Assembly: GCA_030833445.1 (NCBI GenBank)
Contig: JAURHD010000003.1
Location: 1 to 64,000 of the forward strand
Origin: Cephaloticoccus sp.
GTDB lineage: Bacteria > Verrucomicrobiota > Verrucomicrobiia > Opitutales > Opitutaceae
DNA length: 64,000 nucleotides
Reading direction: 5' to 3'
The translations under genes were made by a program, and so were the position numbers. A model generated the notes under the pieces. The model was not told the DNA's origin. It searched no databases and saw nothing but the letters and a program-made list of their open reading frames with translations. Shown piece after piece: positions 56,560-59,990 of this stretch. Every line of letters starts with the position of its first letter. The stretch's first letter is position 1.

Positions 56560-57255
56560 ATGAAAAAAATTGTTACCGTATTGGTTATTCTCGTCCTCGG
56601 CCTTGGATTATATCTCGGTTATCGCGGCTACCGCGACTACCAGTCGGAACAAACCGCAGCCCTCGAGCGGATGCGCATCGCTGACGAGCAGGCTGCCCAA
56701 CAGGATCAAGCCCGACGCGCGGCTGCAGAATTGGAGGCCCATCGGCTGGCGGAGCTACAGGCGCGACAGGAAGCCGACGAAAGTGCCCGCCAACTCGCCC
56801 AACTGAAAGCTGAGCAAGTGGCCGCGGCCGAGGCCCTGAAAGCAGCCCAGGTTGAGGACGCCAGAATGAAGGCTCTGGCGGAACAACTCCGCATGGAAAA
56901 GGAAGCTGCTCAAGGTGAAGCCCTCCGCCTCGCTGAACTGCGTGAACAGGAGGCCGCCGAGGCCGACCGGGCCCGACAGGCTGCGTTGGAAAAATTAAAG
57001 GCCATGGAAGCCGACAAACGGGCCGCGGCCGACCGTGAAGCCGCCCGCTTGGCCGCCTTGGAATCCCAGCAGGCGCGTGAGGCGTTTCTCGCCAATCTGA
57101 CCCCACCGGCCTCGCGCATCATTTATCCGGCGGATTTCAAGCCCCGGGATCACCGTAATTTGCGATCGATCATTGAGTGGGAAGCCTATCGCCAGGAACT
57201 CGCGGAAGCTCAGGCGGCGGTCGAGGCTGGAAAGGCCGCGGAATTGGCAAAATAA
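56560..57255 (+). CDS. Membrane-anchored coiled-coil protein, 231 aa
   Basis: This protein has one N-terminal membrane helix ([18 protein letters not shown], residues 4-21) and then an Ala-, Glu- and Gln-rich coiled coil of about 150 residues ([25 protein letters not shown] and so on). A short C-terminal segment follows ([19 protein letters not shown]). The TolA-like composition suggests an envelope-spanning or spacer protein, but low-complexity helices match many families, so no function is proposed. It precedes rplU by 47 bases, likely with a promoter between. Confidence 0.75.
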
Positions 57256-57897: not shown

Positions 57898-57927
57898 AAC
57901 GCAGCCTGATTTAGGCTGCGTTTTTTA
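57898..57927 (+). terminator. Rho-independent terminator after rplU-rpmA
   Basis: AACGCAGCC (57898-57906) pairs with GGCTGCGTT (57914-57922), loop TGATTTA, then TTTTA. It ends the ribosomal operon. Confidence 0.88.
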
Positions 57928-57956: not shown

Positions 57957-58298
57957 ATGGCCTCCGATCACCTCAATGAACTCCGCCGTCAGCGTGCGCT
58001 GGTGCAACAGCAGCTCGATTGGCTGGATCGGGAAATTGCCAAAGGTGATCCCACCGACCAAGTGCCGCCGGTCAAACCGACGATCCGCACAAGCCATGAA
58101 GCAGCCCCTGCTCAAGATGTCCTGATTCCTGAGCCCGCCCCCGTGGCTGCGAGTCAGGATGCCAAACGCGGTTGCCTGTTCGCCTTTTTTACTCTGATGG
58201 CCTTGTTGGCGGCCCTCATGGTGGCCTTGTATTTTTGGAAATATCGCGACCGACCGGTTTTGTTTGCAGATCGGACTGCGTCCGAGGCCAGTCCGTAA
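57957..58298 (+). CDS. Small membrane protein, 113 aa
   Basis: An N-terminal charged coiled coil (NELRRQRALVQQQLDWLDREIAK) is followed by a proline-rich linker, one membrane helix (GCLFAFFTLMALLAALMVALYFW, about residues 77-99) and a short tail. I do not recognise a family. It is the first of three genes on the same strand ending with the MamK-like actin (gaps 73 and 44 bases). It could be a membrane anchor for that filament, an idea based on position only. Confidence 0.65.
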   Translation: MASDHLNELRRQRALVQQQLDWLDREIAKGDPTDQVPPVKPTIRTSHEAAPAQDVLIPEPAPVAASQDAKRGCLFAFFTLMALLAALMVALYFWKYRDRPVLFADRTASEASP

Positions 58299-58371
58299 AT
58301 TATACGTCTAGGTTGGCCCGTTTGAATATTTGTTGAACCGGCTGCACCAACCGGGGTCTCAGGTGGCAACC

Positions 58372-58797
58372 TTGAGTGAAATTACCCGGACAGCCGACAA
58401 CCAGAACGCTACGGTTCTCAAAGATGCACTGGCTGTGCATCAGCGCATCTGTGTATTGCAGCATCAGCGCCGTTTGGATGAAGCGACCGCCATGCAGTCC
58501 GAGCATTTGCAACCACTGCTGGATCAAATTGCTGCACAAGGTCTGATTAGCCCCGATGAGCTGACCACCGCCCTGGAATCAGAGCGTAAACGCGTGGATG
58601 ATGCCGCATTGCTCGCCTGCTTACTCGCCCCACTACTGGCAGACCAATTGGGAACAAATACCGCCGGTCTCCAGTCATCCGATCTGACTTCACCGAAATC
58701 AATTTCCACTGCCCGTCCCCGGCCGCCACCTCCGGCGAATATCGCTGGGTTTATCGACGAGATGCTGTCCAAGCAAAAGTCAACCGGGCGACCCTGA
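58372..58797 (+). CDS. Hypothetical helical protein upstream of the MamK-like gene
   Basis: This protein of about 141 residues is mainly helical (LKDALAVHQRICVLQHQRRLDEATAMQSEHLQPLLDQIA), with a Pro- and Ser-rich linker (TARPRPPPPANIA) and a C-terminal helix GFIDEMLSKQKS. No domain was recognised. The start is unclear: TTG 58372 has AGGTGG six bases upstream, while TTG 58330 or GTG 58363 are alternatives; no ATG is in place. It lies 44 bases before the actin gene and is probably co-transcribed with it. Confidence 0.55.
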   Translation: MSEITRTADNQNATVLKDALAVHQRICVLQHQRRLDEATAMQSEHLQPLLDQIAAQGLISPDELTTALESERKRVDDAALLACLLAPLLADQLGTNTAGLQSSDLTSPKSISTARPRPPPPANIAGFIDEMLSKQKSTGRP

Positions 58798-58841
58798 AAC
58801 TACTCCAGCCGTCAACCAACCCGTAAAATAAAACCATACCT

Positions 58842-59990
58842 ATGACTACGACCACTGTAGAAAAAAACACGGCTAGTTCGGCTAATGTCGCAACCAGTGC
58901 AACCAATCCACGCCCATCGGCGGCCAAGACCAAAACCATTTTAGTGGGTTTTGATTTTGGCACCAACAAATCCTGCCTCCTGGCAAGCGCCGCCGGCAGC
59001 AAGGATATCACTGTGAGCAAGGTCATCCCAACCAGTGTTGGTTACGTGAAGGACGGCATCGTGGACGGCATCATCACGGGCAATGCGCAAATTCTCTTTG
59101 GTGAGGAAGCGGAGGAGAACATGCTGCACGTGAAACTGGTGGCGCCCCTTGAGGAAGGCTTCATTGCCCACCCCGATGCGGCCCATGATTTCCTTGGGCA
59201 CATTCGCTCGCTCGCTGATCCCTCCGGCCAAGCCGAAATCCGGGCGGTGATCGGCGTGCCCGCCAATGCCAATGAACCTGCCTTGGAAACCCTCCGGCAG
59301 TGTGCCCATGGCATTTTCGATAGCGTGCTGCTCATTCCGGAGCCGTTTCTGGCCGCACTCGGTTACCGTGACGATTCCCGGCTCGGTCAATCCAGTTACA
59401 TTGATCCTGTCGTCAATTCGCTTTTCATCGATATTGGTGGCGGCACCAGCGATCTCTGTCTGGTGCAAGGTTACTTCCCCACCAGTGATGACCAGATTAG
59501 CATTCCTTTCGCGGGCGACAGCATCGATCAAATCCTGCACTCCGATTTGAACCGCACATATCCCAACAACCGGCTGTCCCGGCATACCGTGCGCGATATC
59601 AAGGAGGAACACGCGTATGTTGGTCCATCGCGCAAACCCATCGACGTCAAGGTGGTCATGGGCGGCAAAGCCCACTCCTTGGAATTGGGCGATATCATCG
59701 GCAATGCCTCCAATCAGCTGATCGATAAAATCTATCCGGCCCTCACCACCTTGATCGCACGTGCCTCTTCGGATTCCGTCGTTGCCCTCCTGCAGAATAT
59801 CATCGTCACCGGTGGAGGTTCCCAAATCAAAGGGATCGACGCCATGTTGCAGAAGAAACTGACGGACGATGGCTTTGAATCGCCCAAGGTTCGTCTGGCG
59901 GGAGTCGACTACAAGCGTTACGTCGCCATCGGTGCGCTCAAAGCAGCTCAATCGGCCCGCGAAAATCAATGGCAGGTATTACTCGACTAA
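58842..59990 (+). CDS. MamK-like bacterial actin
   Basis: This 382-residue protein of the actin/MreB/Hsp70 ATPase fold has phosphate-1 GFDFGTNKS (36-44), phosphate-2 FIDIGGGTSD (195-204) and adenosine loop VTGGGSQIKG (322-331). Several blocks follow MamK, the magnetosome filament actin, rather than MreB: AVIGVPANAN, a PEPFLAALGY segment, FAGDSIDQIL, DIKEEHAYVG and LLQNIIVTGGGSQ. An N-terminal extension of about 30 Ser/Thr/Ala-rich residues is unusual. It is probably a filament-forming protein with an unknown cargo. No magnetosome genes are nearby. It overlaps the end of the Gfo/Idh gene by 4 bases. Confidence 0.85.
   Translation: MTTTTVEKNTASSANVATSATNPRPSAAKTKTILVGFDFGTNKSCLLASAAGSKDITVSKVIPTSVGYVKDGIVDGIITGNAQILFGEEAEENMLHVKLVAPLEEGFIAHPDAAHDFLGHIRSLADPSGQAEIRAVIGVPANANEPALETLRQCAHGIFDSVLLIPEPFLAALGYRDDSRLGQSSYIDPVVNSLFIDIGGGTSDLCLVQGYFPTSDDQISIPFAGDSIDQILHSDLNRTYPNNRLSRHTVRDIKEEHAYVGPSRKPIDVKVVMGGKAHSLELGDIIGNASNQLIDKIYPALTTLIARASSDSVVALLQNIIVTGGGSQIKGIDAMLQKKLTDDGFESPKVRLAGVDYKRYVAIGALKAAQSARENQWQVLLD

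Follow-up and report, generated by a model that had tools for sequence, protein, structure and literature searches.

Gene content of the locus

The window is the whole stretch of 64,000 nucleotides analysed here (positions 1 to 64,000 of contig JAURHD010000003.1, Cephaloticoccus sp.), and the source genome comprises 2.9 Mb in 72 contigs with 97.75% completeness. Its gene for a MamK-like bacterial actin starts with ATG and occupies 58842-59990, the position given in a first-pass annotation of this DNA. Two small genes, here called A and B, precede it on the same strand, and the features of the locus are given below.

57898..57922, + strand: terminator-like stem-loop with a T run, behind rpmA and upstream of gene A (identified by pattern only; the region has 4 such sites against 3.6 expected)
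57957..58298, + strand: gene A, small protein with one membrane helix (a neighbour only; family in 83/120 genomes, with or without beeR)
58330..58797, + strand: gene B, partner gene of beeR, 155 aa, start TTG (uncertain), directly upstream of beeR (co-occurrence 71/75 vs 5/297)
58396..58653, + strand: predicted three-helix bundle of gene B, residues 23-108 (AlphaFold2; 10-residue-block pLDDT mostly 94-98, ends 77 and 84)
58741..58782, + strand: predicted C-terminal helix of gene B, residues 138-151, motif IAGFID (AlphaFold2; motif in 62/63 and 36/37)
58842..59990, + strand: beeR, MamK-like bacterial actin, 382 aa (NF053558, 581 bits; PDB 8r2n, phmmer E 3e-191)
58842..58937, + strand: N-terminal extension of BeeR, residues 1-32 (low complexity; sequence variable in a 28-row alignment; the BeeR and MamK models begin at residue 33)
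58938..59984, + strand: actin-fold core of BeeR, residues 33-381 (NF053558 positions 1-349 matched)

Among the genes typed from 52.2 to 62.9 kb are rplU, rpmA, a pfkB-type kinase gene, a Gfo/Idh oxidoreductase gene, a chorismate mutase/prephenate dehydratase gene and scpB. The stem-loop at 57898-57922 would separate A-B-beeR from rplU-rpmA. Upstream of rplU, 56560-57255 encodes a protein of 231 aa that has a hydrophobic stretch at its N terminus and a long, coiled-coil-like region rich in Ala and Glu; it is kept in 7 of 41 beeR loci, and its SpoIIIAH match is sub-threshold only.

The open reading frame 58842-59990 encodes a BeeR orthologue

BeeR was reported in PNAS in 2025 as an actin nearest to MamK that occurs in non-magnetotactic Verrucomicrobiota and has no known function (PMC11929497). 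Its N terminus consists of 30-50 unstructured residues, unresolved in PDB 8r2n, and its polymer is an ATP-dependent, hollow, three-stranded tube ~80 Å wide with a 25 Å cavity; polymerisation and filament structure were determined for the O. terrae protein (PDB 8r2n, UniProt B1ZZL4; PMC11929497). We compared the window protein with curated family models and found that it scored 581.2 bits to the NCBIfam BeeR equivalog NF053558 (cut-off 530), its residues 33-381 aligning to positions 1-349 of 349. The score was 211.7 bits to the NCBIfam MamK model NF040964 (cut-off 400), 47.2 and 45.2 bits to the NCBIfam MreB models (cut-offs 293 and 365.75, respectively) and 61.7 bits to Pfam MreB_Mbl. Membership of MamK was rejected because the protein falls below the MamK cut-off while passing that of BeeR, and membership of MreB because it reaches at most 47 bits against cut-offs of 293 and more.

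Phmmer searches ranked PDB 8r2n first (E 3e-191), MamK 5jyg next (1e-32) and T. maritima MreB 1jce after them (1e-11), a resemblance well past what chance would give. All 369 printed residues of 8r2n were found exactly in the protein of locus L063 (genome G011, taken as O. terrae on this match), with which the window protein shares 76.5% identity over 362 aligned residues. A quick-method tree of 34 of 85 rows separated MreB by a 100% branch, nested the window protein within BeeR and put MamK just outside; the support for BeeR as one group was only 63, with one MamK sequence in the tree. The same genome has a separate MreB-like gene, whose product shows 28% identity to the window protein over 96-339. 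Judged by sequence, the open reading frame is a BeeR orthologue. Given the 8r2n match and the published description, the actin itself adds one more member to a family already known, BeeR having been published as a MamK-like actin that occurs outside magnetosomes (PMC11929497).

The first-pass annotation had likened this protein to MamK rather than MreB by eye, and the blocks that it quoted are all present in the translation (AVIGVPANANEPA, PEPF, FAGDSIDQIL, DIKEEHAYVG, LQNIIVTGGGS and ALKAAQSARENQWQVL). The scores agree with it (212 vs at most 47 bits; 1e-32 to 5jyg vs 1e-11 to T. maritima MreB), and so does the phylogeny that it had proposed, which, run with MamK and MreB, does not place the window protein inside MreB (100% branch). 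The N-terminal extension that it described as disordered corresponds to ~32 variable, low-complexity residues that remain unaligned ahead of the core, and its idea of a filament-forming family outside magnetosomes accords with the published BeeR (PMC11929497).

Range of beeR and conservation of cross-strand residues

We counted beeR in 75 of 372 genomes of the order: 73 score at least 420 bits, and the other two, G299 and G332, are fragmented; all other matches reached at most 87 bits, and 32 genomes pass the BeeR cut-off. A sample of the phylum gave 17 matches to BeeR at 1e-50 in 387 genomes, all within the same order, and within the genus two of nine genomes (G000 and G006) carry the gene. 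We fetched 40 beeR loci, which with the window make up the 41-locus set.

The cross-strand contact residues of the BeeR filament were described as mostly conserved (PMC11929497). We compared ten of the twelve named residues, leaving out Arg252 and Asn380, which mismatch the numbering of L063. The window protein keeps 7 of the 10 positions with matching numbering, and the three changes relative to O. terrae BeeR are Arg157 to Gln, Ile277 to Met and Gln310 to Ala. Across 28 BeeRs, Glu occurs at position 153 in 23 and at position 149 in 9, Asn at 246 in 8 and Arg at 157 in 4; seven of the 28 have a gap at the Leu385 position, and the pocket positions 277 and 284 are hydrophobic throughout. The published contacts at positions 149, 157, 242, 246, 310 and 385 are poorly conserved among these members, so filament architecture may differ within the family, and the three-stranded arrangement may, from sequence comparison, not hold for all BeeRs.

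Gene B lies directly upstream of beeR and co-occurs with it

The B family was gathered by iterative profile search. Counting that of the window, 37 of 41 loci have a family member directly upstream of beeR on the same strand. The two genes are 21-181 bp apart at 34 of these loci and 335 bp apart at one, and they overlap by 4 at two, as measured to the start of the beeR match, which is not always the start codon. We also assembled a set of named genomes, the best 80 of 160 loci from a contig scan with the BeeR alignment; some organism names in it are doubtful ('Klebsiella pneumoniae' L156, 'Akkermansia muciniphila' L152) because these are binned metagenome contigs. B was directly upstream in 63 of these best 80 loci and missing from 17, one of which (L134, with 56 bp upstream) is uninformative, leaving 16 B-less loci among 79 informative ones. 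Fourteen of the 16 could be placed in a tree of 85 rows, two of them mistranslated (MreB_L030 and L175), which was used only for this placement; seven of the 80 named loci had no full BeeR open reading frame for it, and L134 was also left out. The 14 loci are confined to three places in the tree (L126/L130/L139, a ten-row group, and L180), so that few losses, or few unrecognisable B genes, suffice to explain them.

A B profile from an alignment of 34 rows was then applied to the same 372 genomes as BeeR. Both genes were detected in 71 genomes, beeR only in 4, B only in 5 and neither in 292 (Fisher p 7e-65, shared ancestry ignored). The gene at 58330-58797, one of the two upstream partners suggested by the first-pass annotation, is thus strongly conserved with beeR (71/75 vs 5/297 genomes). 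Two of the four beeR-only genomes (G151 and G195) have beeR at a contig end, and G195 retains the C-terminal part of B with its motif; in the other two, G021 and G036, which are whole genomes, a profile search at E 1 gave no B. Among the five B-only genomes, G108 carries B at the end of a contig, the B of G261 is decayed and contains stops, the G092 match is weak (6e-4) and probably lies outside the family, and G138 and G150, of one genus, have an intact, shorter B. B and beeR are on different contigs in the fragmented assemblies G035 and G038, and also in G227 and G232, but there with B at a contig end. The absence of B in G021 and G036 and beside beeR in 16 of 79 loci means that B is not strictly needed, or that it is unrecognisable there.

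B-family proteins of a beeR-less genus were seen at L212 4720-5112 and L213 4786-5199, with the bundle kept and the C-terminal motif absent; in our reading, these genes adjoin a CoaBC-like gene.

The genes flanking B-beeR vary by group, with rplU-rpmA in some and a pseudouridine-synthase-like gene in others. We clustered the open reading frames of 70 aa or more in the 41 loci (BLAST E 1e-8) and found that the clusters present in 12 or more loci were only beeR, B and reading frames antisense to beeR, with no third partner gene among them. The first-pass idea that the filament could position some other organelle or cell-envelope structure therefore gains no cargo candidate from these loci, and nothing here speaks against it.

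B and beeR are jointly absent from the site in congeners

The congeners G001, G002 and G004 have rplU, rpmA, gene A and the facing downstream Gfo/Idh oxidoreductase gene in place, gene A at the G004 site being diverged (E 7.5e-9). In the same stretch of these three genomes, the B and BeeR profiles found nothing significant (best E 0.049 and 0.27, both from open reading frames at other places within these stretches). The congener G006 has both B and beeR, and G003, G005, G007 and G008 have no close Gfo/Idh match to anchor the comparison. The joint absence of B and beeR at an otherwise kept site indicates that the unit gained or lost is B plus beeR.

Gene A is a neighbour from the rpmA region

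The gene A product combines one membrane helix with an RGC motif and, at its N terminus, a stretch that looks helical (RQRxLVQxHLxWLDREIA); it had no match in Pfam or NCBIfam. In the bacterial family, 83 of 120 genomes have a member of the gene A family, the beeR-less G002 among them, and so do 7 of the 41 beeR loci. Of 26 genomes with A and a placed beeR, A adjoins B-beeR in 8; in the other 18 it is on a different contig or separated by 100 kb or more (counted by eye). In G172 the two genes are 2.7 Mb apart on one contig (3.77 Mb against 1.09 Mb). Gene A directly follows rpmA in the beeR-less G001 and G002 and, more diverged, in G004. As a specific partner of BeeR it was rejected, since the family is common in relatives that lack beeR and its gene stands behind rpmA in congeners of this kind. 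Gene A is a neighbour that belongs to the rpmA region, and the membrane helix therefore drops out of the proposal below.

The first-pass annotation had described two small upstream genes, one with a membrane helix, as partners of the actin. Both genes are there on the same strand, the one at 57957-58298 with one hydrophobic segment, but the partnership does not extend to the membrane-helix gene at 57957-58298, whose family occurs in 83 of 120 genomes. Likewise, of the three-gene set 57957-59990, whose conservation it had proposed to check, the B-beeR pair is kept (37 of 41 loci), whereas gene A is not (7 of 41).

Predicted structure and C-terminal motif of the gene B product

B proteins are poorly conserved, with a mean column identity of 18-19%, and the family has no accepted relative in Pfam, NCBIfam or the PDB. 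A PDB sequence search with the B profile gave nothing better than E 0.42. NatB_MDM20 (Pfam, E 0.0065) and an NCBIfam c-di-GMP-motif family (E 0.0038) were each matched below the curated cut-off by one of 34 members, and a few other families by single other members; all were taken as chance.

We modelled the window B with AlphaFold2 from a 43-row alignment (mean pLDDT 81). The model has helices at residues 23-45, 49-70 and 75-108, which form the bundle, followed by a loose Pro-rich linker and then the helix at 138-151 (blocks 74-83). The distant B of Pelagicoccus (L170) was modelled with helices at 9-30, 34-55 and 58-130, a loose stretch and a low-confidence helix at 157-191, and the two models agree in layout. 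A Foldseek search with the B model had 0 matches at an E of 0.001 or lower. With VIA-align, Z reached 8.0 at most, the best being to flagellar proteins, which is within the noise stated for helical bundles.

The motif [ILVM]xx[MLIVFY][ILV][DE] was found in the last 70 residues of 62 of 63 and 36 of 37 B proteins encoded beside beeR, in two sets that overlap in species. Among shuffled tails of the same proteins, 4.5 and 3.7 matched on average, with maxima of 13 and 11. The motif was defined with the alignment already in view, so the shuffles exclude composition as its source and do not make it a prediction. The B proteins beside beeR that lack the motif are those of L125 and L100, the latter having undetermined residues at this place. 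The B of G035 falls outside the pattern, yet has a similar ending (IHFDDLESILNEAL). In the beeR-less congeners G138 and G150, the bundle of B is kept and the motif is absent.

Proposed role of the gene B product

From the orthology, the gene pair, the joint presence and absence, the predicted layout of B and the motif absence in one beeR-less genus, all obtained here, we infer a putative binding of B to BeeR, a candidate binding site on B and a possible purpose of the filament. B may be a soluble adaptor or regulator of BeeR filaments, its gene being placed like mamJ. BeeR would form the rigid, three-stranded, ATP-dependent tube shown for the O. terrae orthologue, on which B would dock by its amphipathic C-terminal helix (with a motif like IADFIDEML). 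The Pro-rich linker would serve as a tether, and the three-helix bundle would be the working end, either self-associating and so tuning filament nucleation or spacing, or binding cargo. That the open reading frame is a BeeR orthologue acting together with the gene B protein, and that the latter is most likely a soluble filament accessory docking by its C-terminal helix, we regard as likely. We lean, by a small measure, towards the stronger statement that gene B founds an accessory family dedicated to BeeR, that the two genes form a module gained and lost as a unit, and that the filament-binding site lies in the C-terminal helix, for which the case of the missing motif comes from one genus (G138 and G150).

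Several other explanations have to be weighed against a filament-bound accessory. B and beeR might be neighbours for historical reasons and do no joint work, B having been inherited with the locus. Most loci are indeed vertically inherited, the p-value ignores relatedness, and three places of the tree have beeR without a B nearby. However, B stays while the flanking genes change between groups, both genes are gone from the same site in three congeners, and in the fragmented assemblies G035 and G038 B is kept apart from beeR, on a different contig. In addition, 292 of the 297 beeR-less genomes have no B, and the rest are a contig end (G108), a decayed gene (G261), the motif-less pair G138/G150 and a weak match (G092). 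We therefore consider a shared history without shared function improbable. A different kind of joint work, in which B is a folding chaperone or a monomer-sequestering factor for BeeR and not a filament-bound adaptor, appears unlikely, but would suit a small helical bundle with a short C-terminal helix and the weak structural likeness to flagellar proteins including FliT (3a7m; Z 6.9-8.0, within helical-bundle noise). Against it, O. terrae BeeR produced in E. coli is soluble and polymerises, and the main text of that paper names no co-expressed partner (PMC11929497).

A membrane-anchored complex of A (through its membrane helix), B and BeeR would explain why 7 of 41 loci, including the O. terrae locus L063, have the three genes side by side on one strand. 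It is nevertheless very improbable, because gene A is widespread with or without beeR (83 of 120 genomes, including the beeR-less G002), lies 2.7 Mb from beeR in G172, and sits directly behind rpmA in the beeR-less G001, G002 and, diverged, G004. We give almost no credence to the reading of the window gene as a MamK orthologue in the remnant of a magnetosome cluster. Outside BeeR, no known actin is nearer than MamK (5jyg, 1e-32; MamK model, 212 bits), but that score is far below the cut-off of 400, whereas the BeeR cut-off is passed. A search of the whole genome with the MamK model found nothing above the cut-off, the best match being this one at 212 bits and the only other reaching 80.9 bits. 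No magnetosome gene cluster is present among the genes typed between 52.2 and 62.9 kb, where the neighbours encode L21, L27, a Gfo/Idh oxidoreductase, chorismate mutase/prephenate dehydratase and ScpB. The first-pass description of a region without magnetosome genes thus stands for MamK genome-wide and for the typed neighbours.

A soluble B docking on the BeeR filament remains our preferred reading. Gene B is unmentioned in the main text of PMC11929497, the sole BeeR paper among the matches listed in open-licence literature. The actin itself is known, and the new part is an undescribed small gene that nearly always accompanies it. Gene B is a first handle on the purpose of BeeR filaments, and a dedicated partner gene makes the question of BeeR function testable.

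Comparison with known systems

MreB belongs to the same actin superfamily, and Pfam MreB_Mbl matches the window protein at 61.7 bits. The window protein differs from it in scoring at most 47 bits to the NCBIfam MreB models, and the genome has its own MreB-like gene elsewhere. MamK is the nearest characterised actin to BeeR; the window protein, however, stays below the MamK cut-off, and there is no magnetosome setting among its typed neighbours. The genes mamJ and, in strain MV-1, mg-1g50 are reported to sit immediately upstream of mamK genes; both encode adaptors of low conservation (PMC10653835). A gene for a fast-evolving protein directly upstream of the actin gene is a feature shared with B and beeR, and the parallel between MamJ and gene B is one of gene position only. 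The closest counterpart is BeeR of O. terrae, from which the window protein differs in three of ten numbered contact residues, and with which it shares passage of the NF053558 cut-off, 76.5% identity, the N-terminal extension and, at locus L063, the same upstream genes A and B.
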